NCBI GenBank assembly: GCA_038396605.1
Contig: CP121690.1
Span: forward strand, 310,001-374,000
Direction: 5' to 3'
From: Eubacteriales bacterium mix99
GTDB lineage: Bacteria > Bacillota > Clostridia > Caldicoprobacterales > DTU083
DNA length: 64,000 bases
In this document: piece by piece, positions 8,041 to 36,085 of the stretch
Layout: each line of letters opens with the position of its first letter
How positions within the stretch are numbered: the stretch's first letter is position 1
Program-made: the position numbers and the translations under genes
Notes under the pieces: generated by a model
Database searches by the model: none
What the model was told of the DNA's origin: nothing
Seen by the model: the letters and a program-made list of their open reading frames with translations, nothing else

Positions 8041-8170
8041 GAAACAGACTTCAGGGTATTCAGGGCATAGCCTCGCCCCTGCTGCTTTTCAGCAGCAAAA
8101 AGGATGGATGCTGTGTCCTCATTTCAGGCGGCCCTGCGCCGAAACAGCTAAGGCTTTCCTCATGATTTTT
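8041..8170 (-). ncRNA. Structured leader RNA shared with the polysaccharide operon (copy A)
   Basis: On the minus strand this reads AAAAAATCATGA, then a stem (GCCTT...AGGGC) capped by GCTGTTTCGGCGC, then TGAGGACACAGC, then the hairpin GCTGCT-GAAA-AGCAGC, then GGGGCGAGGCTATGCC, whose GCTATG pairs imperfectly with the CACAGC segment. The same order of blocks, with compensating changes in stems, occurs at 33128-33245 between loaP and the glycosyltransferase genes. I cannot match it to a riboswitch family. The best reading is a LoaP loading site or similar antitermination element in the LCP leader (inference). Confidence 0.6.
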
Positions 8171-8233
8171 TAGTTCGGGTTCAGTCTTTGTCCTATTATA
8201 CGTTGATAGCTATTTAAAACATTTGATATGAAA

Positions 8234-16661: not shown

Positions 16662-16689
16662 TTCATTACCTCATGTCACTAAATTTTCT

Positions 16690-17544: not shown

Positions 17545-17635
17545 GGTATCCTCCAATCATATTCCTAAATTATGCATAACAATGAACCGATTTTCTCTTT
17601 AGCTGAGAGACACAAGTCGTTCCTGAACAAAGAAC

Positions 17636-18733: not shown

Positions 18734-18805
18734 CACTATGTCTCCTTTATAAACATACCCTATAAATTCTGCATTTGTTGCCCTGCGGATCTCATCATTT
18801 TTCAC

Positions 18806-20038: not shown

Positions 20039-20063
20039 AATACCTCACGTTCCTTTCTCTTAC

Positions 20064-21152
20064 TCAATCCATATAAAACTCTTTATACCATTGGGCAAAC
20101 TTGCGAAGCCCATCCCTTAAACCAGTACTTGGTTTAAACCCAAAGTCCTGTTCCAGTGCACTTGTATCGGCATAGGTAACAGGCACGTCCCCTGGCTGCA
20201 TGGGAACCAGCTTTTCATGTGCTTCAAAATCGTAATCCTTGTCCAATACTCCTGCTCGCACCAATTCCTGTTGAAGAATGTCCACAAAATCAAGCAAATT
20301 CTCCGGATGATTGTTTCCGATATTGTAAATCGCAGCAGGAGGAATGGGAAGACCATCCTCCCCGGTAACTCGTTTCGGAGCACCACACATCACGCGTTTT
20401 ATGCCTTCAACGATATCGTCAATATAAGTAAAATCCCTCTTACAATTGCCGTAATTGAAAATCTGAATGGTTTCATTGTTTCGCAGCTTGTTTGTAAAAC
20501 TAAAATAAGCCATATCCGGTCTCCCTGCAGGCCCATAAACCGTAAAGAACCGCAGCCCGGTTGATGGGATATTATACAGTTTACTGTAAGCATGAGCCAT
20601 AAGTTCATTGCTCCTCTTTGTCGCAGCATAAAGACTGACCGGGTTGTCCACCATATCTTTGGTAGAATATGGAACCTTCTTATTATAACCATAAACAGAT
20701 GAGGAAGAAGCATATACAAGATGTTTTACACCTACAGAGTCTCCGTCATAGGAATGTCGGCATGCCTCCAGGATGTTATAAAATCCAATAATGTTTGATT
20801 CTATATATACATCAGGGTTTGTAATGGAATAACGGACACCTGCCTGGGCAGCCAGATTGACTACAATGGATGGCTTATAATGTTTAAATATGTTATCAAT
20901 AATGCCTCTATCCGCAATAGAGCCTTTTAGGAACGTCCAAACGGATCCTAAACATTCGTCTGCACACTTTTTAATCTGCTCAAGCCGATATTTCTTGATG
21001 CCCACATCATAGTAATCACTCATATTGTCTATCCCAATAATATGCACATGGGATGTTGTGCGTAGCAGCTCCAGCACTAAATTAGATCCGATAAAGCCAG
21101 CTGCTCCTGTGATAAGATAAGTTTCCTCACAATGTACTTCTCCGCTTTGCAA
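20064..21152 (-). CDS. UDP-glucuronate 4-epimerase (CapI/LspL-like)
   Basis: 362-residue extended SDR enzyme: TGAAGFIGSNL, LAAQAGVRYSI, SSSSVYG, Y-x-x-x-K in LYAATKRSNE, and GLRFFTVYGPAGRPDMA, a signature of UDP-glucuronate epimerases. It interconverts UDP-GlcA and UDP-GalA. The short N-terminal extension (MQSGEVHCEE) before the Rossmann fold is slightly longer than usual. Next to ugd in the operon. Confidence 0.88.
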   Translation of the reverse strand: MQSGEVHCEETYLITGAAGFIGSNLVLELLRTTSHVHIIGIDNMSDYYDVGIKKYRLEQIKKCADECLGSVWTFLKGSIADRGIIDNIFKHYKPSIVVNLAAQAGVRYSITNPDVYIESNIIGFYNILEACRHSYDGDSVGVKHLVYASSSSVYGYNKKVPYSTKDMVDNPVSLYAATKRSNELMAHAYSKLYNIPSTGLRFFTVYGPAGRPDMAYFSFTNKLRNNETIQIFNYGNCKRDFTYIDDIVEGIKRVMCGAPKRVTGEDGLPIPPAAIYNIGNNHPENLLDFVDILQQELVRAGVLDKDYDFEAHEKLVPMQPGDVPVTYADTSALEQDFGFKPSTGLRDGLRKFAQWYKEFYMD

Positions 21153-21211
21153 TTCTAATTCTCCTTTGCCTTTTGGAAGTCCCTCTGCTATTTACTTCAT
21201 TATCTTTAAAT

Positions 21212-22702
21212 TCATCGGTGCAAGCTGTATTGTATCTTCTTCGCTTTACTTCTAAATTTTCTAACGAATCCAAAGTTTAGAAGTTCTTCTTTCATTTGCG
21301 GAAACAGTAATAAGACAGCAAAATAGATAATAACACAAATCAAAATGGAAACAAAAGACCAAACGACATTTTGGCTTATTTGCTGAAGAGCGAAACCCAC
21401 AACTCCCATAACAATTGAAGAAACGATAGCAGGATATACATTTTTCATAATCGAGTAAGTCGAAATCCCAAAACAATACCACAATATTATCAACCCAGTT
21501 ATTACGCCCTGTATTCGGACTAATGAACGCCCTATATACAATGCCCTAAAACCTATCGGAGTTAAAATCATCAATATAATAACGAGAAACACCAAATGGA
21601 TACACTGCGATAACAAAGAAAGTTTTGGCTTTCCTTTGCTCCTATAAACCTCACTGTTGTAATGCCCAAAAATAATTGTAAACGCACTGGTAAGTGACCA
21701 CAGCCCTATAAATTCCGAAGCCTCCATCCATTGACTCCCAAGCAGAATTTGGGTGGCCAAGTCTCGATATAGGAACAGTCCTATGCCCATCGGCATAACC
21801 AGAACTGCTACATATCTTTGAAATTTAAAAAAAGTATTCCGAAATGCCGATTCATCATTTTGATACCTGGAAAGAGCGGAAAACAAAACCGGGGTTGTAG
21901 CGCCAGTTATAATCGCCATATAGGCGTTGACTGTCGTCATGGATGTTTTGTACAGGCCAAGATAATGCTCATTTAAAAACCTTCCAACTATAAAAATATC
22001 AACATTTGATGTTAGCCATATTGATATCTGCTCGAAAAGAGACCAAAGGCTAAAAGATAACATTTCTTTTAGTTTATCAAAGCTATAAAATAATTGAGGC
22101 TTCCAAGGCGACTTTACAGTCAATATAACAGCATTAGCTATCTCTTTGAGTAAATTACCAAATATGATTGCCCAGTAACTTTTAAGCAATATAGCCAGAG
22201 GTACGGTAATAACTAACGGAATAAGCGATGTAACCAATCGTGCTTTGAACAGTGTTTTAAAATCAAAGTTACGCCTATATAATGCCGTTTGTATACTGGA
22301 AAAAGATAATATAGGGATAGCCAACCCAGCTACAACGATCGCTTTCTCTTTCCCCTCATTCCCTACAAGCTTTGCGATCGGATCGGCAAAGACAAAAATA
22401 GTGAACCAGATTATCAACGAAAAGATAAAGTTTGTCCAAAACGCAACGTTCGTACTGTCAGCCAGATCCTTTTTATCCTTAAACTCATGCTGTACAATAT
22501 ATTTTTGGAATCCAGCATCCGTAAACATATCAGAAAAACTGATGACCATCGTTATTGTCGCAACCACTCCAAAAACTTCCGGAGCAAGAACTCTCGCCAA
22601 TATCATATTGGTAATAGGCGAAATTAGCTTGCTTACTATTTCAGTAATGGATGACCACTTAGTCGATGACGATATCTTCTTATTTAGATTGTTTTGTTTC
22701 AT
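21212..22702 (-). CDS. Wzx-type polysaccharide flippase (MOP superfamily)
   Basis: 496 residues with about 12-14 predicted membrane helices and the family start KISSSTKWSSITEIVSKLISPITNMILARVL...FGVVA. It moves undecaprenyl-diphosphate-linked repeat units across the membrane. The start overlaps the 3' end of the CapA-like gene by 23 nt (start 22702; AAGGAATGCAAA ahead), implying translational coupling. It pairs with the EpsG-like polymerase in the same operon as a Wzx/Wzy system. Confidence 0.85.
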   Translation of the reverse strand: MKQNNLNKKISSSTKWSSITEIVSKLISPITNMILARVLAPEVFGVVATITMVISFSDMFTDAGFQKYIVQHEFKDKKDLADSTNVAFWTNFIFSLIIWFTIFVFADPIAKLVGNEGKEKAIVVAGLAIPILSFSSIQTALYRRNFDFKTLFKARLVTSLIPLVITVPLAILLKSYWAIIFGNLLKEIANAVILTVKSPWKPQLFYSFDKLKEMLSFSLWSLFEQISIWLTSNVDIFIVGRFLNEHYLGLYKTSMTTVNAYMAIITGATTPVLFSALSRYQNDESAFRNTFFKFQRYVAVLVMPMGIGLFLYRDLATQILLGSQWMEASEFIGLWSLTSAFTIIFGHYNSEVYRSKGKPKLSLLSQCIHLVFLVIILMILTPIGFRALYIGRSLVRIQGVITGLIILWYCFGISTYSIMKNVYPAIVSSIVMGVVGFALQQISQNVVWSFVSILICVIIYFAVLLLFPQMKEELLNFGFVRKFRSKAKKIQYSLHR

Positions 22703-23837
22703 TTTGCATTCCTTGCCTTATTAATTCGTTATGAGCTTCACATACAAAATAATTCCACAGCTTGAGAAACTCCTTTTCTCTGTAATTCCGACGAATAGAT
22801 TTATCAACAAATTTTTTTCCTAAAAATTTGCTAAGTACTCTGAACCACAGAGAAGATATATGCTTCCCTTGTAAAGCACGTAAATAGACAGGCAACATTT
22901 CAGTTGCAAACTCATCATATTTTTCTTGAACTATTTTATCAGACTTTATCTCATCAGATCGTTTCCAGAATTCTTTGAAAATATCTTTTTGCTCATTCTC
23001 GTTTGCAAGCCTCACAGCATTCCCATTTTTTATAATCGGATGATAAATGATTGAAACATTGGCTTTAGGTGATACATTCAATTCAATTAAAAGAGCTGTT
23101 TTCCAGTATTTGCTATCTGAGCCATCAAATAAAAAATTTCCTTGACCATACACTATATTCCCATCACCATATTTCTCCTCACATCCAATACAATGGGAAT
23201 GTTGACATACAACAAGATTTGCACCCTTATCAACCATTTTCCTGCAAACTCTTTGTAGGTAAGGAGAAGGATACCTATAATGTTCCTTTCCTCCATGATA
23301 TAAGACAATAACATAATCAACTTTACTCTTAAGATCAAAAATATGATCCAAACTTACAAGTGGATCAAACGGGTTCGCACCACCATGATTTCCACCTGCA
23401 ATAGAAAATTCATGCTCAGCACAGCAATAAATTCCTATTTTTAAATTCTCATATTTGCATATATAAGGACGTTCAGCCTTGAATAGACTTCTCCCGGCAC
23501 CTGCATATTTAATGCCAGCTTTATCAAGTGCTTTAATTGTAGATAAAAGTCCTTGCTCACCCTGATCAAGAATGTGATTATTGGCCAGTGTAAAAAAATC
23601 AACATTAAGTTTGTTCATCCCATTAATCATAATTTCCGGAGCAATTAAGTTAGGACCACACTTTTTTATCGGAGACCGTACATCCGTTAACGGAGTTTCA
23701 AGATTGAAAATCCGAAAATCTGCCTGTTCTAAAATTAGTCCTAACTTATCATCCATCAATTTTCCCATTTGGCCCGTTGAAAATTGCTTATAATTGCTCT
23801 CTGTTGGAACTAAATCAGCACCGATTAATAATCTCAT
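22680..23837 (-). CDS. CapA-like metallophosphatase (PGA_cap family), cytosolic form
   Basis: 385 residues with family motifs LIGADLVP, FNLETPLTD, LANNHILDQGEQG, LYHGGKEHY and CQHSHCIGCEEKYGDGNIVYGQGNFLFD. Unlike CapA of the poly-gamma-glutamate capsule, it has no N-terminal membrane helix or signal. Family members with this fold occur in poly-glutamate synthesis and in many polysaccharide clusters, with unclear roles. Its partners here are an opine-synthase-like and a TupA-like gene, so a role in adding amino-acid groups to the glycan is plausible (inference). Confidence 0.78.
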   Translation of the reverse strand: MRLLIGADLVPTESNYKQFSTGQMGKLMDDKLGLILEQADFRIFNLETPLTDVRSPIKKCGPNLIAPEIMINGMNKLNVDFFTLANNHILDQGEQGLLSTIKALDKAGIKYAGAGRSLFKAERPYICKYENLKIGIYCCAEHEFSIAGGNHGGANPFDPLVSLDHIFDLKSKVDYVIVLYHGGKEHYRYPSPYLQRVCRKMVDKGANLVVCQHSHCIGCEEKYGDGNIVYGQGNFLFDGSDSKYWKTALLIELNVSPKANVSIIYHPIIKNGNAVRLANENEQKDIFKEFWKRSDEIKSDKIVQEKYDEFATEMLPVYLRALQGKHISSLWFRVLSKFLGKKFVDKSIRRNYREKEFLKLWNYFVCEAHNELIRQGMQNETKQSK

Positions 23838-23884
23838 ACTTCTCCTTAAAATACCATAAAGTTTTTATTTGGAAACTCTTCTTT

Positions 23885-24832
23885 TTACTTTATTGTTCTG
23901 TTATTTAATACAACACCATTTTTAGCGTATAATGCATTTCTTAAGACATCATTAATGTCTCCTTCAATCAGTCTATCGATATAACTATAGACCGCAGAGG
24001 AAATATTGGCAGAAGCTGTTTTGTAAAATAAAGAAGGTGTGTGATCAACAACATAATGCAATATACCGCCTTCAGAATAGACAGGATCTTGAATCGTTGT
24101 TGGTATACTCGATTCTATTCCTCCATTCCGATCACAACTAATATCAATGATCATAGCCCCTTTCTTCATTCTTTTTAAATCTTCATGATATATAATATGA
24201 TCATTTCTTGAAGAATCCCATAATATTGCATTCACTATTACATCATAATTCGGAAGTTCTCTACGCAATAGCACATCCATTTTTCTGCTATATACTGTAA
24301 CATTTGCTCCCAGTAACGTTAAGATTTTCAAAGCTCCGCTACCTACATTTCCTCTGCCGATAAGTGCGACTTTGGCATCATATGGCATCTGGCCATAACA
24401 TTGAAATGCATGCATTATTGCTGCTTCTCCAGCTATCTCATTATTACGCCAAAAAACATGTCGACCACCTTCAAACATATCTTCCCATGCAAATGCTGTC
24501 AAACCACCTCTAATGATTGCATTCCTGATAGGCTTATTTTGGACTGCATGCAGCCAACCAAATATAGTCTGATTATGTAAACCTGTTAGGTATTCAGCAT
24601 CCCCGATCTTAGGATCGCAGATAATGTCTTTCTTCAGTGCCTCTTCTCGATCAACCATATGCACACCATGTATGGCAGCATAATCATCATCAGAGTATCC
24701 AAGAACGTTCCCGTATCCATGCTGAAAATAAAGATGATCCCGATTTTTTATCTTAGATAAATCTGGCGGAACTATAGCCCGACGCCTTTCGTTTTCCTTT
24801 TTATTAATTGGGAAACCTATGGTCCTTTTCAT
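23885..24832 (-). CDS. N5-(carboxyethyl)ornithine synthase-like dehydrogenase
   Basis: 315 residues, the usual length of this family, related to alanine dehydrogenase. Landmarks are IGFPINKKENERRRAIVPPD at the N-terminus, FGWLHAVQNK, AWEDMFEGGRHVFWRNNEIAGEAA, the NAD(P) site ALIGRGNVGSGA, IDISCDRNGGIESS and HYVVDHTPSLFYKTAS. Characterised members reductively join pyruvate to the side-chain amine of ornithine (or lysine). Placed between a CapA-like and a TupA-like ATP-grasp gene inside a polysaccharide operon, it probably makes a carboxyethyl amino acid for attachment to the glycan (inference). Confidence 0.82.
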   Translation of the reverse strand: MKRTIGFPINKKENERRRAIVPPDLSKIKNRDHLYFQHGYGNVLGYSDDDYAAIHGVHMVDREEALKKDIICDPKIGDAEYLTGLHNQTIFGWLHAVQNKPIRNAIIRGGLTAFAWEDMFEGGRHVFWRNNEIAGEAAIMHAFQCYGQMPYDAKVALIGRGNVGSGALKILTLLGANVTVYSRKMDVLLRRELPNYDVIVNAILWDSSRNDHIIYHEDLKRMKKGAMIIDISCDRNGGIESSIPTTIQDPVYSEGGILHYVVDHTPSLFYKTASANISSAVYSYIDRLIEGDINDVLRNALYAKNGVVLNNRTIK

Positions 24833-24850
24833 AATAATTGGCCTTCCTTC

Positions 24851-25750
24851 CTAATCAATATGAATTAAATCTCCAAAGTACAAGTCGGTTTCAGGCAACA
24901 AATTTAAATCGAATCCGCTTTGCGGATATAGTGTTAGCTCACCAAAATAAATCTTATGATTGCACTCATATAGATCGACACGAATAAAGGGTATCCCCAT
25001 AGAAAGTTTTCCTGCTATCGCAAACATCTTATCAATCTCATCCGGCCTTTTCAAAGAAAAACCGGCAGGTGCTTCCTTTCCGCTTTTGTTGATTCTCAAA
25101 AGCTCCCAATCCTTATTAAAGAAGTAGAACTTTGTATTACCTGTTTGTCTGCCAATACAAACCATAACACAATCTACATTGCCATTAAAGCAAAAGAATT
25201 TATAATCTGCCAATCCCTCATTACTTAATTGATCTTGCAGGTATTCTTCTGCAATAATTCTTCTGGGTACGTCTTTATAGGGCCATTCACGACCAATTAA
25301 ATAATAATTCTGCTTCAGTCCTTTTCTGAGCCTTCTTTTTATCGCCTGAACATCCAATGCTGACTTATCTTCGCAAAGACACATACCTAATCCGGAATTG
25401 TGAGTACACTTCAAGACAAACTGATTTGGCAGTGCATTAAAATCAATTTCATCCGGATCCTCCCATACTCCAAGTAAAGGAATTAAGAACTCTTCTCCAA
25501 CGGTATCTGCAATATATTTTCGAACTTCATATTTATCTACCATCATCGTATATTTAGGATGTCGGTCATACAACTTTAACCATTGTATCTTTTCGTTAAA
25601 CGTCTGAGGCGAATTCAACCTCAATTCTCTGTCCATTTTTGCTCTATACTTTATCCTGAGATATTTTTCATCCGGTAAGAAGTTCAATATTCCGTAGTTC
25701 AATAAACAAATTGTCCACATTTTCTTTGAGACTAAATTCTTAAAATACAT
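24851..25750 (-). CDS. TupA-like ATP-grasp ligase
   Basis: 299 residues from ATG 25750 (AAAGGA 11 nt upstream; a longer frame to 25828 would overlap the upstream gene). Typical TupA-like sequence: FLPDEKYLRIKYRAKMDREL, PQTFNEKIQWLKLYDRHPKY, MVDKYEVRKYI, FVLKCTHNSGLG, RRIIAEEYL, YKFFCFNGNVDCVMV and a C-terminal metal/ATP region RVDLYECNHKIYFGELTLYP. TupA of alkaliphilic Bacillus is linked to amide bonding of glutamate to glucuronate in teichuronopeptide. The neighbouring opine-synthase-like gene and ugd suggest it ligates the opine to a uronic-acid carboxyl (inference). Confidence 0.82.
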   Translation of the reverse strand: MYFKNLVSKKMWTICLLNYGILNFLPDEKYLRIKYRAKMDRELRLNSPQTFNEKIQWLKLYDRHPKYTMMVDKYEVRKYIADTVGEEFLIPLLGVWEDPDEIDFNALPNQFVLKCTHNSGLGMCLCEDKSALDVQAIKRRLRKGLKQNYYLIGREWPYKDVPRRIIAEEYLQDQLSNEGLADYKFFCFNGNVDCVMVCIGRQTGNTKFYFFNKDWELLRINKSGKEAPAGFSLKRPDEIDKMFAIAGKLSMGIPFIRVDLYECNHKIYFGELTLYPQSGFDLNLLPETDLYFGDLIHID

Positions 25751-25793
25751 ATATTTTGCATCCTTTCGACTTATGTAGAAATAGTCCGGCCTT

Positions 25794-26930
25794 TTAATCC
25801 CAAAATAATATATATTCATCCAAACCATTTGAAACTAATATATTATCATAATGAATATTGAAAAAAAGTCTTACAATAAGATATACAATCATGAAGAGTG
25901 TTAGAAAGCTAACCTTTTTGCTTCCATATACAAGTTGAACAGATCGGGGCTTTAGTTGTAAAGAAGCACAATACATAACAAAGAAAAAATAAAAATAATA
26001 AGCGCTCCGACTAAATACAGGTGCGAAATAGCCTAGACTTCCACAATAAAAAGTAAAAATACCACATACAACACTCAAAACGTAAAATTTATCAAATCGT
26101 TCGGTGTGATACATTCGCATAATGATATATAGTATTGGTAATAGCCAAATGATCTGCATAATGCCACTACCAGAGCCCCCTTCAAGTTTGAGATAAGCGT
26201 CATACTTGGAGAAAATAGAGAATTTTGTAATGGCATATTCAGCAAACTTATTGAAGCTAAACAATGCAATCGAACCTACTACTAACAAGGATATTATCTT
26301 TAAGATTGTAAGGTTGCTATTTATAAATTTATAGATTAAGTATGCTCCTAATGCAAAAATAGCGCTATAATGAAAAAGCAATGCTATACATAATAATAAA
26401 AAACAACGCTTCTCCTTTCCCATTGATTCATAAGAATAAGCGAGAAAGACTATACTAAGAGCCAACATCATTCTTAATAGATGAAACGAATAAATATATA
26501 ATAGAGTAACATAGGCAAAAACGGAAAAACCAACATTTATTCTATCCCTTAAAAGATAAATAGCTCTGTAAACCAAAAATAAAGAGAAAAATTTTATTAT
26601 TCCTATACCAATATAAGGATTACTTATGAAAGAATTCAAAAAAATACATAATAGCTTGTACCCCGGCTCAAAATCAAGAGACTTTAGGTCATTAAGGCTC
26701 CACAATTTATAGTATTGAACATACGTAGGAATGTCTTCTCCGCTTTTTGTAATGAAGACAATCAAAAAGAGAATAACGAACGATAGGCTATAAGTATTTA
26801 ATGAAAATTTATTATAAATATATTGTGTTACAGCTCCATCTTTTACAATAGGTACACGTTCCTTCTGAGCCATCGCTGCCATCGCCGGAGCAACAATAAG
26901 GACTAATATTAATAATAGCAATTTTGTCAT
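25794..26930 (-). CDS. EpsG-family polysaccharide polymerase (Wzy-like)
   Basis: 378-residue polytopic membrane protein with about 10 helices. The YVQYYKLWSLNDLKSLDFEPGYKLL segment in the first large loop and RMMLALSIVFLAYSY are typical of EpsG/Wzy proteins. It polymerises lipid-linked repeat units at the outer face of the membrane. Base composition is A+T-richer than in the flanking regulatory genes, common for Wzy. Starts at ATG 26930 right before the GT4 gene's stop on the same strand. Confidence 0.82.
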   Translation of the reverse strand: MTKLLLLILVLIVAPAMAAMAQKERVPIVKDGAVTQYIYNKFSLNTYSLSFVILFLIVFITKSGEDIPTYVQYYKLWSLNDLKSLDFEPGYKLLCIFLNSFISNPYIGIGIIKFFSLFLVYRAIYLLRDRINVGFSVFAYVTLLYIYSFHLLRMMLALSIVFLAYSYESMGKEKRCFLLLCIALLFHYSAIFALGAYLIYKFINSNLTILKIISLLVVGSIALFSFNKFAEYAITKFSIFSKYDAYLKLEGGSGSGIMQIIWLLPILYIIMRMYHTERFDKFYVLSVVCGIFTFYCGSLGYFAPVFSRSAYYFYFFFVMYCASLQLKPRSVQLVYGSKKVSFLTLFMIVYLIVRLFFNIHYDNILVSNGLDEYILFWD

Positions 26931-26931
26931 C

Positions 26932-28008
26932 TCAAGCTCCCTCTATTGTGTTTTGCAAAAAAGAAGTCCATTGGCTTGTGATTCTGCTTATCGACAGGCA
27001 ACTTCTTATATCTTGCGCTTCCTTGGCGATACTCCGAGCAAACGGGGAGTCTGATAAAATCAGCTTCATAGCATCCGACATTGCGTTTCTATCGCCAACA
27101 GGTACTAAAATGCCATTAGACCCTGACTTTATAACTTCTCGAGCCCCACCAATTGGATGATCTGTCGAAATTACCGGTAAGCCCATTGCCATTGCTTCTA
27201 TCAAAGCATTGGACAGTCCTTCATAATCTGAGGGAAGCACAAACAATGTTGCTTTTTGTATCTTATCAAGCACCTGCCTATTGTAGCCTTTTAAAATAAC
27301 CCTTCCCTCCAAATGTAATTCTGAAATCTGTAATTCAAGTGAAGATCGAAGAGATCCTTCTCCATATATCTCCAGAACATATTCCGGGAACAATGCAGCG
27401 ATATCTGCAAAAGCATTAATTAATAATCTGTGATTTTTCTGCTTCTCCAACCTACCCACGGAAACGATCCTTTTCTCCCGTTCTTCTATCCAAGGAGAAG
27501 GAATTGAATCATCCAAAGGATTCAAAATAATAGCGCTGCGTCTGCGGATCTCTGGCTTAAAGTAATTACAGGCATCCTGAGTCTGAAAAACAAACCCATC
27601 TGCTCTTTTATATAACATATCCCTTTTATTTCTCAATTGCCGACTGTCCGGATCAACGTAAGGATTGTTACGTTCACTCAAAACCACTTTTATTCTCGTC
27701 TTATGCAATGAATTTAAAACAAAAAGATTCACAGCTGCTGTAAAGGAAACCACAATATCGGGCTGACAGGATAATACCTGCTTTTTGTATTCATGACATC
27801 GGGATAGATAACGTAATCCACGAATATTAATTTTGCTTCGAACCTCGGAAACCTCTATTTTTTCATCTATTGGATACTCAATTTGACTATTAGCAATCAT
27901 TTTTATGTATACTTCATGACCTTCACGGCTCACTTCATTTGCAAGGCGTGCAACAACTCTCTCTGCCCCTCCGCCAGCCAATGAGCCAATTGTAAATAAA
28001 ATTCTCAT
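26932..28008 (-). CDS. Glycosyltransferase family 4
   Basis: 358-residue GT-B enzyme. N-terminal GSLAGGGAERVVARLANEV is the acceptor-side loop. The C-terminal donor site has VSVGRLEKQKNH, EIYGEGSLR and the E-x7-E motif in SDYEGLSNALIEAMAMGLPVI. Cytosolic, adds one sugar to the lipid-linked repeat; donor sugar not assignable. Directly abuts the next GT gene (stop and start adjacent at 28008/28009). Confidence 0.88.
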   Translation of the reverse strand: MRILFTIGSLAGGGAERVVARLANEVSREGHEVYIKMIANSQIEYPIDEKIEVSEVRSKINIRGLRYLSRCHEYKKQVLSCQPDIVVSFTAAVNLFVLNSLHKTRIKVVLSERNNPYVDPDSRQLRNKRDMLYKRADGFVFQTQDACNYFKPEIRRRSAIILNPLDDSIPSPWIEEREKRIVSVGRLEKQKNHRLLINAFADIAALFPEYVLEIYGEGSLRSSLELQISELHLEGRVILKGYNRQVLDKIQKATLFVLPSDYEGLSNALIEAMAMGLPVISTDHPIGGAREVIKSGSNGILVPVGDRNAMSDAMKLILSDSPFARSIAKEAQDIRSCLSISRITSQWTSFLQNTIEGA

Positions 28009-29172
28009 TTATTCCCTTTCGTTATTCCTGATTATTTTTTTCAGGCAATTACAATAAGTTTGCCCGGCTGATCCAGCGGTAAAACCGTTTTTCTCAATTA
28101 TAGAAAGATACTTTTCAGGCACTGGATGTTCCTTTCTTATCCCACTGATTATTGCTTCTGCCCAAATGGAGACGCTGGTTATCGGAAGAAACTTGACAAG
28201 CCCTAAATGCATATCGCATTCTCTTGTTATAGAATCTGATAATATGATTGGAGTACCTGCAGCCTGGCTTTCTATAGCTACAGTTGGTAGTCCTTCTTTA
28301 ATGGAAGGCAGGATAAGCATATCCGCATACTTCAATAAATGAGGAATATCATTTCTATGCCCAATAAAACGAATACTATCCAATATTTTCATTCTGGAAG
28401 CTTTGTCATAAACCTCACTATACAATTCACCGTCACCAGCAAACAAAAATACAAATGACCTGCACTTCACCTTTAATTGAACAATCAGCTGCAATATAAA
28501 ATCATGATTCTTCAATGCAGTAAAACGACCCACATGCATAAAAACAAGAGCATCCTCTTCTACACTAAACTCCTGATTATATGCTTGTCGCTGTTTAACA
28601 GATAATGTATTCTGATAAGCTTTAATATTGACGCCATTGGGAATAAATGTAACATCTCTCTTTAAAAGATACTTTGAGCCAAAAATAAAATCAGCGGCTA
28701 ATTTACTACAGGTCATATAATCCGTAGCGATTCCATAATTGGTTCTTTGATTCATATATCGCACAAACGGTAACATATCAAAGTGTCTCTCATATTGTGT
28801 CTTGTGAGCATGGAGAATAAACGTATGGATATGATGCCGTACAGCAGCTCTTTGAAAAGGTACTGCTCTTAATCCGTCAATATGACAGTGAACTGCATCA
28901 TAGGCATGCGCAACCATAACCTGATTAATAAAATCCCAGAATTTTTTCCAACCTTCCAATCTTGGCCTTGGCATTAAATAAGATTCTGTTCCTATCGCGT
29001 GAACCCGTTTCAAGAACCTTTCTCCACCCTTATAGCTGAATGCCATGATATCAAAGGTAAAATCTTTGCTCTTATTTTCTAAAAGATTCAGAATCAACGA
29101 GGATATACCCCCACCATAGCCAGAAAAAATATGGAGTACACGATATTCAGATTTCTGATTACTCGTTTCCAT
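28009..29172 (-). CDS. Glycosyltransferase family 4 (EpsF-like)
   Basis: 387 residues. HIFSGYGGGISSLILNLL at the N-terminus; HVGRFTALKNHDFILQ, FLFAGDGELY and LPSIKEGLPTVAIESQAAGTP in the donor domain. Similar to EpsF-type transferases of Gram-positive exopolysaccharide operons. Its start overlaps the upstream GT gene by 14 nt, indicating coupled translation. Confidence 0.87.
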   Translation of the reverse strand: METSNQKSEYRVLHIFSGYGGGISSLILNLLENKSKDFTFDIMAFSYKGGERFLKRVHAIGTESYLMPRPRLEGWKKFWDFINQVMVAHAYDAVHCHIDGLRAVPFQRAAVRHHIHTFILHAHKTQYERHFDMLPFVRYMNQRTNYGIATDYMTCSKLAADFIFGSKYLLKRDVTFIPNGVNIKAYQNTLSVKQRQAYNQEFSVEEDALVFMHVGRFTALKNHDFILQLIVQLKVKCRSFVFLFAGDGELYSEVYDKASRMKILDSIRFIGHRNDIPHLLKYADMLILPSIKEGLPTVAIESQAAGTPIILSDSITRECDMHLGLVKFLPITSVSIWAEAIISGIRKEHPVPEKYLSIIEKNGFTAGSAGQTYCNCLKKIIRNNERE

Positions 29173-30289
29173 GTAAAACTCCCAGATATTCCTCTCGAAT
29201 TCTTTTCACGTCGACACGGCTCTTTACAAACTCAATAGCATTCCTTGATATCCTCTGGAATTCAACACCATTCATATCCACAAGTTTCTGCAGATTATCT
29301 ATAAATTCTTTCTGATTGTTCAAAGATATCGCCCAGCCAGCTTCCGCTTTGTTTACATCGTTCCATGGAGTCTGGTCACTGATCATTACGGGAAGACCGG
29401 CCAATAAGGCTTCTGCGATAACATGTCCATAATTTTCACTTAATGTAGGCAGAAAAAATACCTGATACCCACTTAAAACATTGTAAACCTCAGCATGTTT
29501 CACTACTCCCTGATACGACACCTGCACGTTACCAGGCATATTCGCAATAATCTGAAGACAATCATTCCAGTAATCCGGATTCTCCAAGGGGCCATAAATA
29601 GCCATCCTGATATCCCCATGCAATTGTCTTATACAATTTAATGCAAATATCAAATTCTTCTTTGGATGAATCCGGGACAAAAACACCAAGAATAGTTCGC
29701 CAGATCTTTTATCATTACAAATATGTAAAAAATCTGGAATCGTCGGGATATTATCCAATAATAAAATCCTATCGGGGGATATATGCAGTATCTTTTTTAT
29801 GGCTTCGGTTTCTTCCTCACTGGTAGATTGAAAACTTATCAACCTGCTTTTCCAATATTTTTTCAAAGCCCATAAATACGGCATCTTCTTATATTTCTTC
29901 TTAAAAGCATTTTTACATAATTCACCACGTGGAGCTATTAATGCACGTATATTTTTTTGCTCTGCTAAACTTAGAAAAGGATACGTGCGCTTCATGTCAA
30001 ATATACTATTTAGATAAATCCAATCCGGCTTTACTTCATCTAAAATTTTCTGAAAGTATGGAACCCTCATTTCACTTTCTTTTAGATATCTGACATGTGC
30101 ATTACCTTGTAGCTGCCATCCTTCTCCGATCCCTTTCAGTTCTGCCTTTGAACCATATTCATGATTGCTCGTTACTATATAACAATCTATATCATGGCTC
30201 ATTAACCGACAAAAATTTAAGATACTGACAGGAGGGCCACCGTAATTTTGAGCTGGAAAATAGCCTGATACAACTATTAATATCCGCAT
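29159..30289 (-). CDS. Glycosyltransferase family 4
   Basis: 376 residues. VVSGYFPAQNYGGPPVSILNF at the acceptor side; VFLSRIHPKKNL, IYGPLENPDY and LPTLSENYGHVIAEALLAGLPVMIS with the E-x7-E donor motif. Donor and linkage unknown. Part of the four-GT block of the operon, suggesting a repeat unit of about five sugars including the priming sugar. Confidence 0.87.
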   Translation of the reverse strand: MRILIVVSGYFPAQNYGGPPVSILNFCRLMSHDIDCYIVTSNHEYGSKAELKGIGEGWQLQGNAHVRYLKESEMRVPYFQKILDEVKPDWIYLNSIFDMKRTYPFLSLAEQKNIRALIAPRGELCKNAFKKKYKKMPYLWALKKYWKSRLISFQSTSEEETEAIKKILHISPDRILLLDNIPTIPDFLHICNDKRSGELFLVFLSRIHPKKNLIFALNCIRQLHGDIRMAIYGPLENPDYWNDCLQIIANMPGNVQVSYQGVVKHAEVYNVLSGYQVFFLPTLSENYGHVIAEALLAGLPVMISDQTPWNDVNKAEAGWAISLNNQKEFIDNLQKLVDMNGVEFQRISRNAIEFVKSRVDVKRIREEYLGVLHGNE

Positions 30290-30341
30290 ATAAGTGATCT
30301 CTCTTTTATATTAAAAGCAAATCTTATATAGCAATGATTCA

Positions 30342-31547
30342 TCATATTAGAAAACCATCCATCCTGGATAACAAACTCTCCTTATCATAGTTTTGTTTAC
30401 TGTACTGATAGGCATTATTCGCCATCCTTTTTAACTCATCGTCTGATTTGGATACGAAATTTTTTATTTTAAGAGCCAACATTTCAGCATTACCTGCATT
30501 ACTATAAGTTCCCGCTTTAGCCTCTCTTATAACATCCTGAACTTCACCATCTGCTGATACTATTATTGGTATTCCGCAAGCTAAACATGACTGCATTTTG
30601 GCTGGCAGTGTCATAGAGAATACTTTGCTTCTTGACAAACAAATCAAAGCTGCATCACATACGGACATAAACTCTGGTATTCTAATTGCCGGCTGTCTGG
30701 AAATAAAATTAAACATCTCAGATAAATTATGCTTATATACCAAATCTATCAATGTATCCTTAAAACGTCCATCCCCTACAATATTAAATCGGACATTGAC
30801 TTTTTCCTTCTTTAAAATATTCGCTGCTTTGGGCAATACTTCTAACCCTTGTGCCACACCAATATTTCCTGCAAATACAATATTAAATCCGTCCTCTTTA
30901 ATCTCTGGCACCTGAACAGTCCCACGTTTTACTGGCTTATAAAACTCTTCTGCATACTGCGGCCAAAACTCCAGTTTCCCAATATCGACACCGCGTTTAT
31001 TTATAGATGCTATAAAGCTTTTTGAGGAAGTAAATATTCTATTGCATCGCTTGTATATATAATCAACCATACTGCCAATTGCTTTCAAAATACCTTTGCT
31101 TTTTATACCAGCAACTATTTCTACATTTTCTGGCCATAGGTCTGTTACATATAAATAGCACGGAATCTTTTTTTTTCTGGCATACCAAACTCCAGGCAAT
31201 GCCTGCGTCATGGGAGAAACTTCATAGATAAAAACATAATCAGCATTTATTTTGGTAAATAATTTCCATAAAAATCCTGTCACAACAAAAGATAAGTAAT
31301 TCAGTACTAACATCAATGCATTGTGTCCTCTTGGTATCACAGGGATTCTTATAATATTTATACCTTTATAGGATTCCTTCCTTCTCTTACAGATCCCATA
31401 TCCTTTATAATACTTACCCTGTGGGTAATTAGGAATGCCTGTGATAACTGTTACCTTATTGCCTCTTTTTACCCATTCCGCGCAAATATCATTTATTCGA
31501 AATTGCTCAGGATAAAAGTACTGTGAGATAACCAAAATATGACTCAT
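30342..31547 (-). CDS. WbuB-like glycosyltransferase (GT4, probable FucNAc transferase)
   Basis: 401 residues starting MSHILVISQYFYPEQFRIND, then VITGIPNYPQGKYYKGYG, YEVSPMTQALPG and VTDLWPENVEIVAGIK, a pattern typical of WbuB-type transferases, with FAGNIGVAQGLEVLPKAA in the donor domain. In other bacteria WbuB genes follow fnlABC and add L-FucNAc. The same operon carries fnlABC here, so FucNAc is the likely donor sugar. Confidence 0.85.
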   Translation of the reverse strand: MSHILVISQYFYPEQFRINDICAEWVKRGNKVTVITGIPNYPQGKYYKGYGICKRRKESYKGINIIRIPVIPRGHNALMLVLNYLSFVVTGFLWKLFTKINADYVFIYEVSPMTQALPGVWYARKKKIPCYLYVTDLWPENVEIVAGIKSKGILKAIGSMVDYIYKRCNRIFTSSKSFIASINKRGVDIGKLEFWPQYAEEFYKPVKRGTVQVPEIKEDGFNIVFAGNIGVAQGLEVLPKAANILKKEKVNVRFNIVGDGRFKDTLIDLVYKHNLSEMFNFISRQPAIRIPEFMSVCDAALICLSRSKVFSMTLPAKMQSCLACGIPIIVSADGEVQDVIREAKAGTYSNAGNAEMLALKIKNFVSKSDDELKRMANNAYQYSKQNYDKESLLSRMDGFLI

Positions 31548-31565
31548 TATCTTTAACCTATTCTA

Positions 31566-32423
31566 TTACCTTTCAGTTTCGTTAACTGAATCATAAAAGT
31601 CCCTCACCCGATACTCCTCTTTATATTCACTCATAGTTTTCTGGTAGACCAGGTTGCCAAACACCTTTTTCACTATCCCCACTCTCCCAAGCATCCCCCT
31701 TATAATCGGATTGAAAGCTTTCACAAGCTTTATTTTCTTTCCGTGTGCTTCTGCAACGAGCCGGACCATTTCGCTCGTTTTCACATATTCTCTGTTCTGT
31801 GGGAAAAACAGTCCGCTTTCCTCATTCTCGACCATCAATCGAATAAACTCACACAGATTGTCTATATGCAGCATGCTGCGCTGATTATCAAAATCGGGAA
31901 ATATGGGAAGCCTTTGTGCTGCCTTTGCCAGCTTCGGATAGTTGCCTTTCGAGCCCTTTCCATAAATCATGGGAGGTCTCAGTATTACCACCCGAAAGCT
32001 GTCACCTTGCAGTGCCCGGAGACCCTTTTCCGCCTGAAGTTTACTGTCCCCGTAAAAATTGCCGGGGCTGGGAGCTGTATTTTGATCTATTATGCTCTGT
32101 CCGGCAGTACTGTCCCCATAGACAATAATACTGCTCATAAAAATAAACTGTCTTACGCCATCCTTCTTTGCCTTTTCAGCAGTTTCCACAGCCAAATTCC
32201 GATTTACCCGGAAATAAAGATCTTCTTGTTTTGAATCCGTCGATACATGTGCTATCCCTGCCACATGAAAGACAACATCGTATGGAGAGAAGTCCTTCTC
32301 CTTCCAGGAGTCCGTCCGCATATCCACAGTATCCACCTGATACTTTTCCGGATCCTTCCCCAGCCACTTTTCCACACTGGTCCCGATATAACTGTCTGCG
32401 CCCGTTATCAGAATCTTCTTCAT
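31566..32423 (-). CDS. NAD-dependent epimerase/dehydratase (WbpV-like)
   Basis: 285-residue SDR: ILITGADSYIGTSV nucleotide site, HVAGIAHVS, FMSSIIVYGD and catalytic Y-x-x-x-K in NFYGDSKLQAEK; ILRPPMIYGKGSKGNYPKL resembles enzymes coupled to priming transferases. Likely reduces or epimerises a UDP-4-keto or UDP-HexNAc sugar to supply the priming transferase (inference). Its start overlaps the stop of the priming transferase as ATGA. Confidence 0.8.
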   Translation of the reverse strand: MKKILITGADSYIGTSVEKWLGKDPEKYQVDTVDMRTDSWKEKDFSPYDVVFHVAGIAHVSTDSKQEDLYFRVNRNLAVETAEKAKKDGVRQFIFMSSIIVYGDSTAGQSIIDQNTAPSPGNFYGDSKLQAEKGLRALQGDSFRVVILRPPMIYGKGSKGNYPKLAKAAQRLPIFPDFDNQRSMLHIDNLCEFIRLMVENEESGLFFPQNREYVKTSEMVRLVAEAHGKKIKLVKAFNPIIRGMLGRVGIVKKVFGNLVYQKTMSEYKEEYRVRDFYDSVNETER

Positions 32424-33070
32424 CCCGAAATCGTCCTTTTCCCGGCGGTTTTATCAACTTCCATGACTCCCGTTCCGCCTTCCACAATGCCGTCATGCCG
32501 AAAAACAGATGTGACCGTTCCCAGGAAGCATTTCACATCAAACCAAAAGCTGATCTTTTTTATGTATTCGCCGTCCAGGCCGGCTTTCACTTTTATTGGC
32601 AGCTCATCACGGCCGTTGATCTGTGCCCATCCGGTCAGTCCGGGCCGGATCTGGTTTGCCGTCAGTCCATACCGTCCTTTGTATTCGTCACGCTCCCGTA
32701 TCAGATCCTCCTGGTTCCAGAGAGCTGGTCTTGGCCCGATAACCGACATCTGTCCGATAAAGATATTCCATATCTGTGGCAGTTCATCCAGACTTGTTTT
32801 TCTCAGAAATCTGCCAGCCTTCGTAATCCATTGCTCCGGATTTTTAAGCATATGCGTCGGGACATTATCCGGGGTATTCACCCGCATGGTTCGGAATTTA
32901 AGAATAGAAAAATAGCTCTTGTCCTTCCCGAACCGCTTTTGCCGAAACAGCACCGGGCCCCTGGAGTCCAGTTTGATTGCAAGGATGATGATCAAATAAA
33001 AGGGAGACAATAAGATCAGCCCCAGGAAAGAAATAATGATGTCCAATATTCTTTTTCCCTTCAAATACAT
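32420..33070 (-). CDS. Undecaprenyl-phosphate sugar-1-phosphate transferase (priming, PglC-like)
   Basis: 216 residues. One N-terminal re-entrant membrane helix (RILDIIISFLGLILLSPFYL), then the bacterial sugar transferase core: GPVLFRQKRFGKD, LKFRTMR, KTSLDELPQIWN, MSVIGPRPAL and RPGLTGWAQINGR. It starts repeat-unit assembly by moving a sugar-phosphate onto undecaprenyl phosphate at the inner membrane face. First gene downstream of the RNA element that follows loaP. Confidence 0.92.
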   Translation of the reverse strand: MYLKGKRILDIIISFLGLILLSPFYLIIILAIKLDSRGPVLFRQKRFGKDKSYFSILKFRTMRVNTPDNVPTHMLKNPEQWITKAGRFLRKTSLDELPQIWNIFIGQMSVIGPRPALWNQEDLIRERDEYKGRYGLTANQIRPGLTGWAQINGRDELPIKVKAGLDGEYIKKISFWFDVKCFLGTVTSVFRHDGIVEGGTGVMEVDKTAGKRTISG

Positions 33071-33127: not shown

Positions 33128-33245
33128 AACCAACTTCGGGCCATAGCTTCGCCATTGCTCCCTTTCAGCAGCATTACAGGTGGTGCTATGACCTCAATCC
33201 AGACTGCCTTGCGCCGAAACAGCAAAGGCAGTCTTCATGATTTTT
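33128..33245 (-). ncRNA. Structured RNA between loaP and the biosynthesis genes (copy B)
   Basis: Minus-strand order: AAAAAATCATGA, a perfect 10-bp stem AGACTGCCTT / AAGGCAGTCT capped by a loop with GCTGTTTCGGCGC, then GAGGTCATAGC, a hairpin GCTGCT-GAAA-GGGAGC, then GGCGAAGCTATGGCC, which pairs with GGTCATAGC. Its 5' end overlaps the last codons of loaP. The same element stands ahead of the LCP gene (8041-8170). It sits where a LoaP- or EAR-type processive antitermination signal would be expected: before about 17.5 kb of biosynthesis genes. Confidence 0.7.
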
Positions 33246-33771
33246 TCGGTGCCGGAGGGGTCCCCACATCCTTTTGGACCCACTCTGCGCCCAGATCCAC
33301 CCGCTTTGTCTGTCCTCCCAGCTCAAAGCATACCTTGACCCGCTTCTTGCGGTAGTCAAAGGCCTCAATGATCCCTTCCAGATCCTTCAGGGGACCGCTG
33401 ACGACATGGATCTCATCGCCTTTTTTGTAAAGCTCCGAGAATCCGATGACATCCTCCCCGCCGGTCAGGGCAAGGATCACGGCGATTTCACTTTCCTTTA
33501 TGTACAGAAAGTCCTGCTCTCCTTTCAGGATGCGGAGCAGGCCTGGTACTTTTTTCAGTTCATAGTAGTAATGGACATCCATCTCTGTCCGGAACAGAAC
33601 GTACCCCGGCAGCAAAGGCCGCATGCACTCCACGGCTTTGCCCTGCCGCCGCTCGATCAGCCTGCGTTTTGGAATCAGGATTTTCCGGTTGGCATCCGGA
33701 AGCAGCTTATCCAGATAAAAATGCACCCGCTCTTCTTCCCCTGTTTTCACAAACAATGCATACCACTCCAA
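33235..33771 (-). CDS. loaP: LoaP-type NusG paralogue (processive antiterminator)
   Basis: 178 residues from a TTG start at 33771, preceded by TTTGGAGGGATTCCC. The in-frame codons further up (to 33924) lie inside the cpsB gene and are not used. The NGN domain (WYALFVKTGEEERVHFYL...RPLLPGYVLFRTE) is followed by a linker and a C-terminal KOW domain (FSELYKKGDEIHVVSGPLKDLEGII). LoaP proteins ride with RNA polymerase and suppress terminators in long polysaccharide or polyketide operons. Its location directly before the RNA element and the biosynthesis genes fits exactly. Confidence 0.88.
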   Translation of the reverse strand: MEWYALFVKTGEEERVHFYLDKLLPDANRKILIPKRRLIERRQGKAVECMRPLLPGYVLFRTEMDVHYYYELKKVPGLLRILKGEQDFLYIKESEIAVILALTGGEDVIGFSELYKKGDEIHVVSGPLKDLEGIIEAFDYRKKRVKVCFELGGQTKRVDLGAEWVQKDVGTPPAPKKS

Positions 33772-33794: not shown

Positions 33795-34568
33795 TCAGGT
33801 GAACAGAAAATGAAACAGCCTCTGCCGGTACCGGATCGGAGGATCCGGCTCCAGAAATACATTGTTCATAATGGCCTGAGGGGTATTGTTCAGGACGACA
33901 TCTGCCGCCTCCGACCCCATCCATTTCTGAAGCTTTTCAGACGCTTCCTTTACCCGGGGAGCCCGTCTTCCGGAAGAATGGGCATCGGTACCGACCAGAT
34001 GAGCCATTTTATGGTCAAACAGAATCCTGGCGCACTTCCGGGCCCGGTCCCCGAAGAACCCGTTGATGCTCCCGGCATTGACCTGCCCCATGGCTCCCAG
34101 CTCAATCAGCGGCAGGAACAGATTCGGATCATCCTGAATCCTGTGGTTCCGCTCCGGATGAGCGATAATCGGCTGAATCCCCTTCAGCCGGAGGTTGTAT
34201 ATCACATCCTCCGTATACTGGGGAATATCCAGCATGGGAAGCTCCATCAGCAGATACCGGCTGTAAGCCAGGCAGAGCCGCTCCACCCCGTCCAGCCGGG
34301 AAATTTCGGGGCTGATATAGACCTCCGCGCCCTTTACAATCCGGATCCCCTTATCCGGTTCATCTGCATAGCGCTGGACCTTTTTGATGCCCTCCTTCAG
34401 CCGCTCCAGATAAGCATCGACGGAAGTCTGATCCTCGATAAAATGCTGTGTCGCTGCGATCACCCGAATGCCTTCCGCTGCTGCAATGGCCAGCATTTCC
34501 CTGCTTTCTTCCATGGACCTTGACCCATCGTCCATCTCCGGCAATATGTGACAATGCAGATCAATCAT
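33795..34568 (-). CDS. cpsB: CpsB/YwqE-type protein-tyrosine phosphatase (PHP domain)
   Basis: 257 residues. The metal-binding PHP motifs are HCHILPEMDDGS at the start, GAEVYIS, IIAHPERN and LVGTDAHSSGRR. It dephosphorylates the tyrosine cluster of the CpsD kinase, controlling polymer length and export. The start codon overlaps the stop of cpsD by four nucleotides, so the pair is translationally coupled. Confidence 0.92.
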   Translation of the reverse strand: MIDLHCHILPEMDDGSRSMEESREMLAIAAAEGIRVIAATQHFIEDQTSVDAYLERLKEGIKKVQRYADEPDKGIRIVKGAEVYISPEISRLDGVERLCLAYSRYLLMELPMLDIPQYTEDVIYNLRLKGIQPIIAHPERNHRIQDDPNLFLPLIELGAMGQVNAGSINGFFGDRARKCARILFDHKMAHLVGTDAHSSGRRAPRVKEASEKLQKWMGSEAADVVLNNTPQAIMNNVFLEPDPPIRYRQRLFHFLFT

Positions 34569-35314
34569 AAGCTTCTTCTACCTGCCTTCTCCCGCACTCC
34601 CATCAGCCTGGGCTTTCTCCTCTTGCTCCTGCTGTCCTCAGCATAGCCGTAATAATACCCGTGACCGTTGTGGCTGTGCTCCCTCTCCGGGATGTTGTTG
34701 ATGACCGCTCCAAGAATGTTCGCACCGACCTTCTTCAGACTCTCCTTTGCCTGAAGCGCCATTTCATTGGTTGTCTTTCCATAGCTGAGGACAATGACAA
34801 TGCCGTCCACCAGTTGGGAAAGCACCACGGAATCAGTGACCGGAAGCACCGGAGGCGCATCCAGAATCACCATGTCGCATTCTGCGGAAGCCTTTTGGAT
34901 AAACTCCTCCATCCTCTTTGAACCCAGCAGTTCTGATGGGTCCGGCGGCTTGGGACCGCAGGTCAGGATCTCCAGATCCGATCCGCTGATATATTTGCAG
35001 ACTTCATGATAGTCCAGCGCGTCCGCCAGGACATTGGTCAGGCCCTCCCCGTTGGGCAGATTAAACGCCTTGTTGACGGAAGGTTTCCTCAGGTCACAGT
35101 CCACCAGGAGAACCTTTTTCCCGGTCTGCGCCATGGTAATGGCCAGATTGGAAGCTGTTGTGCTTTTGCCTTCCGCAGCGGCTGCACTGGTGACCAGCAG
35201 GACCTTCAGGTCCTTGTCCAGAGAACTGAACTTCAGATTGGTCCGCAGGGTTTTGTACGCTTCCGCAATCGGGGTTTTGGATGAAGCATTAAACAGTAAT
35301 TTTGACGATTGAAT
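34565..35314 (-). CDS. cpsD: CpsD-type bacterial tyrosine kinase, probable ATT start
   Basis: 249 residues if started at ATT 35314, five bases after the strong site GGGGGAGG. The first ATG in frame (35134) would remove the P-loop. The ATP site reads TSAAAAEGKSTTASN, with alanines where relatives have P-G. Walker A' is LLVDCDLRKP and Walker B is VILDAPPVLPVTDS. The C-terminal tyrosine cluster GYYYGYAED is the autophosphorylation tail. It works with the membrane adaptor CpsC, encoded 14 nt upstream, and is reversed by CpsB. The unusual initiation codon and altered P-loop deserve confirmation. Confidence 0.82.
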   Translation of the reverse strand: MQSSKLLFNASSKTPIAEAYKTLRTNLKFSSLDKDLKVLLVTSAAAAEGKSTTASNLAITMAQTGKKVLLVDCDLRKPSVNKAFNLPNGEGLTNVLADALDYHEVCKYISGSDLEILTCGPKPPDPSELLGSKRMEEFIQKASAECDMVILDAPPVLPVTDSVVLSQLVDGIVIVLSYGKTTNEMALQAKESLKKVGANILGAVINNIPEREHSHNGHGYYYGYAEDSRSKRRKPRLMGVREKAGRRSL

Positions 35315-35328
35315 ATTGACCTCCCCCT

Positions 35329-36012
35329 TTACTTCCCAAAGTTCGGGATATTCCCAAGCACTGGAATCCCCATAATCTTCTCCACGTCTTCCGGCGTCTT
35401 GATGGTATGATCCAGGGTTTCCGCCAGGAAAGCAATCCCGAAGCCAAGTACCAGGCCGAGCACCGCCGCCAGTGCCGTATTCCTTGCCACTTTGGGCCGG
35501 ACCGGATCCAGAGGAGCCTTTGCAACATCAATGGTCTGGACATTGTTCAGTTTCAGCAGAGATGTTACTTCATCCATAAACACATCCGCCAGGGAATTTG
35601 CAACATCCATCGCACGCTGTGAATCCGTATCCTCCACGGTAATGCGGATAATCTCCGTATCGTTTTCCGAATTCACGGATATTTTGGAGCGGAGATCCTC
35701 CAGCGGCATGTCCAGATTCTCTTCATCCTCCACTTTTTCCAGAACACTGTCACTTTTGATAATAACACTGTAAGTGTTGACCAGATCCCTTGCCAGACTG
35801 ACATCACTCTGCTGCAGGTCGTTTGCATTGGTTCTGCTTTTTTGCCCGCTGACAATCAAGGTCGTCGAGGAAGAGTAAATCTTATCCAAAAAGAAGGCGC
35901 TTATCATGCTGGCTAAGAACGCAGCCAGTGCTGCCACCGTAATGATGAGCCAAAAACGCTTGCCGATGATATGCAGAATGTCCCGTAAATCCAGTTCCTC
36001 CATGTCCCCCAT
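35329..36012 (-). CDS. cpsC: CpsC/Wzz-type chain-length and kinase-adaptor protein
   Basis: 227 residues from ATG 36012 (GGAGGGAAAG upstream). Two membrane helices (about 19-40 and 172-192) bracket an external domain. N-terminal LDLRDILHIIGKRFWLI and C-terminal P-x2-P-x4-P-like stretch before helix 2 (APLDPVRPKVARNTA) are typical. It activates CpsD and sets polymer length. First gene of the operon, 75 nt from the promoter. Confidence 0.9.
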   Translation of the reverse strand: MGDMEELDLRDILHIIGKRFWLIITVAALAAFLASMISAFFLDKIYSSSTTLIVSGQKSRTNANDLQQSDVSLARDLVNTYSVIIKSDSVLEKVEDEENLDMPLEDLRSKISVNSENDTEIIRITVEDTDSQRAMDVANSLADVFMDEVTSLLKLNNVQTIDVAKAPLDPVRPKVARNTALAAVLGLVLGFGIAFLAETLDHTIKTPEDVEKIMGIPVLGNIPNFGK

Positions 36013-36085
36013 GTGATACTTTCCCTCCAAGCCCGGATAACTTCAATAATAATCGAATAAATGATATAAAACATTTAACGTGAAA

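Follow-up and report, generated by a model that had tools for sequence, protein, structure and literature searches.

A structured RNA next to loaP and ahead of an LCP gene is a predicted recruitment signal for the NusG paralog LoaP

Two copies of one element at a polysaccharide locus and an LCP gene

The window, by which we mean the whole 64,000-nt stretch of DNA that was analyzed, contains two copies (A and B) of an element of ~120 nt that lie ~25 kb apart (Table 1). Copy A separates the Wzz/kinase/CpsB/loaP genes from a 17.5-kb polysaccharide operon that encodes a sugar transferase, glycosyltransferases, EpsG, a flippase, PGA_cap, CapD and epimerases. Copy B lies ~330 nt ahead of a gene for an LCP-family glycopolymer transferase. 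A long biosynthetic operon follows copy A only, and none was recognized behind the LCP gene. The gene next to copy A is loaP, as the initial annotation had it: its product exceeds the curated cut-off of 125 bits for the NCBIfam family NF033641, and its best match in the PDB is 8f5g (E = 1e-31). For comparison, NF033641 gives the housekeeping NusG of this genome 82.5 bits, which is under the cut-off.

Two further minus-strand open reading frames lie nearby. One, just upstream of copy B (8499-9311), is of low complexity, rich in Pro, Thr and Ser and without a Pfam family, and is perhaps a surface or linker-like protein. The other, between the LCP gene and the polysaccharide operon (11567-13351), encodes a protein with a GmrSD-type restriction endonuclease N-terminal domain (PF03235).

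Table 1. Positions of the element copies, their parts and the neighboring genes in the window.
Feature	Position	Strand	Remarks
LCP-family glycopolymer transferase, predicted trans target	6705..7730	-	PF03816 and TIGR00350 above cut-off
Element copy B, full covariance-model match	8056..8176	-	leader of LCP gene
Copy B second domain	8063..8118	-	P2 with two A-C mismatches
Copy B second domain, further parts		-	P3 UGCUGCU-GAAA-AGCAGCA (8097-8080); GGCGAGGC (8077-8070)
Copy B P1, LoaP-type hairpin	8126..8160	-	UUCG loop 8143-8140
TATAAT, candidate -10	8195..8200	-	~25 nt upstream of copy B; not among consensus-scan results
17.5-kb polysaccharide operon	15519..33070	-	downstream of copy A
Element copy A, full covariance-model match	33132..33251	-	5' AAAAAATCATGA overlaps loaP stop codon (33237-33235)
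Copy A second domain	33139..33193	-	P2 GGUCAUAGC (33193-33185)/GCUAUGGCC (33147-33139)
Copy A second domain, further parts		-	P3 UGCU/AGCA; conserved GGCGAAGC 33153-33146
Copy A P1, LoaP-type hairpin	33201..33234	-	bulged U 33221; UUCG tetraloop 33218-33215
loaP, specialized NusG paralog	33235..33771	-	NF033641 178.9 bits; probable TTG start at 33771
Wzz / tyrosine autokinase / CpsB genes	33795..36030	-	upstream of loaP, same locus

The two blocks had been described as carrying the same ordered elements on the minus strand. We recovered every one of these, namely AAAAAATCATGA, a stem capped by GCTGTTTCGGCGC, TGAGGxCAxAGC, TGCTGCTGAAA and GGCGAxGCTATG, and refined the two spans to those in Table 1; the mean column identity of copies A and B in a MAFFT alignment is 84%. 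The loaP stop codon sits within TCATGA of the 5' block of copy A, which starts inside the end of loaP. The initial annotation had noticed neither this overlap nor that the published LoaP hairpin is smaller than the element. Across the 3.13-Mb genome, copies A and B are the only two sites found (model R1, E <= 0.01; model R3, E <= 0.5); the first covariance model scored them at 92.7 and 87.7 bits (E = 1.1e-17 and 1.4e-16 in this genome), and the later models agree. An apparent third copy, a pattern match inside rpoC, was rejected as a chance match.

Copy A folds strongly on its own (z = -3.74). We observed no unusual fold stability for copy B alone (z = -0.27), and its consensus fold lies ~4 kcal/mol above its minimum free energy structure. 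As energy alone gives copy B no strong fold, the case for this copy is comparative and not thermodynamic. No convincing -35 accompanies the candidate -10 ahead of copy B, and comparable TATAAT/TATAAA sites precede the element in relatives. Consensus scans of the region downstream of copy A and of the interval from copy B to the LCP gene revealed no clear terminator, and these scans performed no better than on shuffled sequences.

Covariation and architecture of the element

A pattern made from copies A and B identified relatives in 7 of 13 genomes of the family, the genome of the window included. A covariance model of eight sequences (R1) had matches in 14 of 30 genomes of the order. Two larger models followed, R2 (22 aligned sequences, trained without any LoaP-selected sequence) and R3 (51 sequences, none from Bacillus, with some LoaP-selected loci in training). 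The initial annotation held that the stems differ in sequence yet keep pairing, and the compensated pairs are real: 20 of 28 pairs are changed on both sides in the R2 alignment, and the covariation score is 0.475 for R2 (shuffled, 0.210 ± 0.017) and 0.534 for the 51 members of R3 (shuffled, 0.185 ± 0.010), scores that are favored by the fitting of both alignments to the model structure. Sliding the pair partners abolished the signal in each case.

The element begins with a 5' A-rich AAUC, followed by P1, GAGGxCAUA, P3, GGCGAAGC and a UAUG that closes P2. P1 is a hairpin of ~14 pairs whose apex has an invariant layout: a pair, a bulged U, a G-C pair, a U-G pair and a UNCG tetraloop. The tetraloop is UUCG in both window copies and UUCG, UCCG or UGCG among relatives, where the pair below the bulged U flips between C-G and G-C with both sides changed. 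In Bacilli, the apex reads UCG-N-U-GU-UNCG-GC-A-CG, and a lower stem (P1a) continues P1 below an internal loop, with variable sequence and conserved pairing. RNAalifold recovered only P1b and P3 from a MAFFT alignment of the Bacilli. As MAFFT misaligns P1a, we applied an arm-swap test, which is free of the bias of the fitted alignments: P1a arms paired with their own partners at -7.59 kcal/mol, compared with -5.07 ± 0.58 kcal/mol for permuted arms, and none of 5000 permutations was as good.

Within the second domain, GGCGAAGC is exact in 32 of the 67 members examined and present with at most one mismatch in 43 of 67, a count in which a few loci were entered twice with slightly different ends. 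GGCGAAGC and P2 are retained in leaders of, for example, Brevibacillus or Paenibacillus. Other members have a degenerate second domain or none, one of them being the leader of the second B. velezensis PKS operon. That leader retains the LoaP hairpin but lacks the GGCGAAGC domain, so certain leaders may be able to do without the second domain.

The loop of P1 also varies at seven loci from Lachnospiraceae, Blautia, Claveliimonas and other Clostridiales, at which the element is directly upstream of loaP and has a non-UNCG apical loop (e.g., UCGUCGCCUUGCCGCG). These are possibly the mark of a LoaP subgroup with different RNA recognition.

Association of the element with LoaP across genomes

Among 391 genomes of the class, 68 encode LoaP (E <= 1e-30), 34 have an R3 match (E <= 0.001) and 30 have both (Fisher p ~8e-22). 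Outside the order of the window's genome, LoaP is encoded by all 21 genomes with an R3 match (p ~1e-19) and by 13 of the 14 with an R2 match (p ~7e-11). All of these p values assume independent genomes, which related genomes are not. As the R3 training set included some LoaP-selected loci, R2 provides the cleaner test of co-occurrence. The initial annotation had named the presence of the element in genomes without loaP as evidence against its proposal. Of the 34 genomes with a match, 30 encode LoaP, and in the other four (G003, G009, G010 and G027) LoaP was not detected; all four belong to the window's own order and are 86-96% complete. Conversely, no element was found at this threshold in 38 of the 68 LoaP genomes, so that either our models miss divergent forms or some LoaP proteins use other signals. 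In G007, loaP lies within a polysaccharide locus from which the element is absent.

The element is often within ~200 nt of loaP, and it lies directly downstream of loaP in at least ten of the genomes. At 70 named LoaP loci that were chosen by the protein alone, R2 gave 25 matches, 22 at no more than 700 nt from loaP (counted by hand), and R3 gave 34, with 31 within this distance. The covariance search that had been proposed returned matches that adjoin loaP in many genomes, and it also placed the element ahead of an LCP gene in a second species (see below).

In one genome of the survey, the element is divergent from loaP and ahead of a gene for a thioesterase-like protein and one for a protein of 2221 aa that resembles an NRPS/PKS. 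This locus is a candidate LoaP-controlled natural-product cluster.

Recovery of the known LoaP targets of Bacillus velezensis

In B. velezensis, LoaP is reported to control exactly two PKS clusters, difficidin (dfn) and macrolactin (mln), each of which has a UNCG hairpin in its leader (PMC12691694). R3 returned exactly two matches at E <= 0.5 over this 4-Mb genome. The first is divergent from loaP and ahead of an AT-PfaD gene (E = 8.8e-5), and the second is ahead of another AT-PfaD gene and a giant PKS (E = 0.005). From this gene layout, we infer that the loaP-divergent leader is the difficidin target and that the other trans-AT PKS operon is that for macrolactin. As a model free of Bacillus sequences recovers both sites, the invariant tip of P1 (bulged U, G-C/U-G, UNCG) matches the published LoaP-binding hairpin. 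A direct pattern search for the clostridial-type hairpin found nothing in B. velezensis, since in Bacillus the hairpin carries an additional A across from the bulge; the covariance model found both leaders.

Removing the 10 nt that directly precede the dfn hairpin is reported to abolish activity, and mln is without a matching sequence (PMC12691694). In B. velezensis, this stretch would hold CCUAUU, the 5' strand of P1a, which pairs with AAUAGG; a covarying P1a would explain the loss of activity upon deletion despite the lack of a sequence common to mln. A dfn pause has been mapped between the hairpin and the terminator (PMC12691694), and the second domain occupies this interval. The authors of the 2025 LoaP paper describe what the dfn hairpin does as unknown and regard its general importance as not yet established (PMC12691694).

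Elements distant from loaP

The arrangement at copy B recurs in another species of the genus to which the window belongs, G010, with ~220 nt from the element to the LCP homologue; this assembly is 92% complete, and LoaP was not detected in it. The LCP enzyme of the window could attach the polymer made by the operon behind copy A. Copies in trans ahead of polysaccharide operons are common. In Caldicoprobacter, a second element precedes a polysaccharide cluster; C. oshimai has one element behind loaP and another 11.5 kb further on. In relatives with a solo loaP, elements precede CapD-like genes (gene names read from translations).

The protein in 8f5g matches Thermoanaerobacter LoaP at 91-99%, and the LoaP of T. 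wiegelii is 96% identical to it. The best R3 match in T. wiegelii is 90 kb from loaP and heads an operon for a UDP-sugar dehydrogenase, glycosyltransferases and EpsG, with a transposase-like open reading frame between the element and this operon. Its 13-nt apex, GCUGUUUCGGCGC, is identical to that of the window. As this element is far from loaP, action in trans appears to be common.

The solo loaP genes form a group of seven loci in relatives from one family of the order, in which loaP stands alone and the elements lie elsewhere, ahead of the CapD-like polysaccharide genes. The gene beside this loaP, convergent with it on the other strand, we take to be glyS. This arrangement suggests purely trans regulation.

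Proposed role of the element and alternative explanations

We consider it very probable that copies A and B are nascent-RNA recruitment signals for LoaP, with copy A serving the polysaccharide operon, copy B serving the LCP gene in trans, and the lower stem and second domain forming integral parts of the signal. LoaP would then probably activate the LCP gene as well as the polysaccharide operon. The LoaP regulon put forward in the initial annotation is well supported on comparative grounds, by the co-occurrence with LoaP, the proximity to loaP, the recovery of the B. velezensis sites and the recurrence ahead of LCP. Comparison establishes the homology, the structure, the link to loaP in occurrence and position, and the recovery of the known B. 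velezensis target; LoaP binding, read-through and a role for the second domain are predictions.

In the mechanism that we propose, the P1 hairpin with its bulged U, G-C/U-G pairs and UNCG loop would be bound by LoaP once it has been transcribed, and the bound LoaP would join the elongating polymerase and give it resistance to intrinsic terminators. At its position after loaP and before the sugar transferase gene, copy A would load LoaP for the 17.5-kb operon. Copy B would do so in trans, with the same LoaP, for the LCP enzyme, which would anchor the glycopolymer to peptidoglycan. The lower stem of P1 would hold the hairpin, and the second domain (P2/P3 and GGCGAAGC) would most likely aid the hand-over to the polymerase, for example at a pause.

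We also considered a self-contained attenuator, in which P2 is an intrinsic terminator, P1 is an anti-terminator or ligand sensor, and loaP is nearby only because both belong to polysaccharide operons. Several relatives have a U-tract right after P2 (CUAUGCCUUUUU); a simple test finds one in 15 of the 50 members with a recognizable GGCGAAGC-like motif, and some further members have one too. However, the U-tract is missing from both window copies and from most members, the co-occurrence with LoaP is far above background (including the 21 of 21 matches outside the order), the element also heads PKS-type operons in genomes with loaP, and the tip of P1 matches the LoaP-binding hairpin. We therefore regard an attenuator as unlikely. 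A plain terminator function for P2 was rejected, as no more than roughly one third of members have the U-tract and neither copy in the window does. In five members, P2 runs into the U-tract and resembles an intrinsic terminator fused to the LoaP hairpin.

Ordered conserved blocks and a multi-helix architecture give the element the look of a riboswitch, and the initial annotation had treated a match to an established riboswitch class as evidence against its proposal. Searches of Rfam 15 gave no match in the window at the gathering score and none to an element at 13 LoaP loci, where only rRNA and tRNA were found; relaxed E-values brought up nothing notable near copies A and B or in six relatives. 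As the gene context also tracks LoaP and not a metabolite, membership in a known riboswitch or other catalogued RNA class is highly improbable. That the copies stem from a recent duplication or are a functionless mobile repeat, as two similar copies about 25 kb apart in one genome might suggest, is equally hard to credit, since their flanks do not align, the genome has only these two, their stems differ by compensated changes, covarying homologues extend across Clostridia and Bacilli, and the placement before LCP is conserved in G010.

Beyond the window, we lean towards the reading that the published LoaP hairpin is the mere tip of a composite antitermination RNA family of Clostridia, Bacilli and possibly Erysipelotrichaceae, in which the lower stem and second domain (GGCGAAGC-UAUG) are functional, for example as another point of contact with polymerase, NusA or LoaP, or as a programmed pause. 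These two parts are absent from Rfam 15 and from the text of the 2025 LoaP paper (PMC12691694), and their novelty rests there. Our data indicate that structured RNA linked to LoaP is general in Bacillota, and they draw attention to a second domain, as yet unstudied, where the dfn pause was mapped. The covariance model predicts LoaP regulons of polysaccharide, LCP and polyketide operons from sequence.

Comparison with known systems

The UNCG hairpin of the B. velezensis dfn and mln leaders reportedly binds LoaP. Like this hairpin, the element has a UNCG tetraloop closed by U-G and G-C pairs with an unpaired U below, it is found in the leaders of long operons in genomes that have loaP, often adjacent, and a Bacillus-free model of it recovers the dfn/mln type. 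Unlike dfn and mln, the window lineage has a different pair below the bulge from the Bacillus UCG-N-U ... A-CG arrangement, its targets are polysaccharide and LCP genes, and the conserved RNA spans ~120 nt with a lower stem and second domain, in contrast to the hairpin described in PMC12691694.

The eps-associated RNA (EAR) of Bacillus eps/capsule operons is, like the element, a structured RNA of polysaccharide operons. EAR promotes terminator read-through in such operons, according to Irnov and Winkler 2010 as cited in PMC12691694. The window element differs from EAR in having no Rfam family match at the gathering score and in its link to the NusG paralog LoaP. Recruitment of a NusG paralog in the leaders of surface polysaccharide operons is also known for RfaH and ops. 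Whereas ops is recognized as non-template DNA (PMC7819879), the conserved features of the window element are covarying RNA base pairs.
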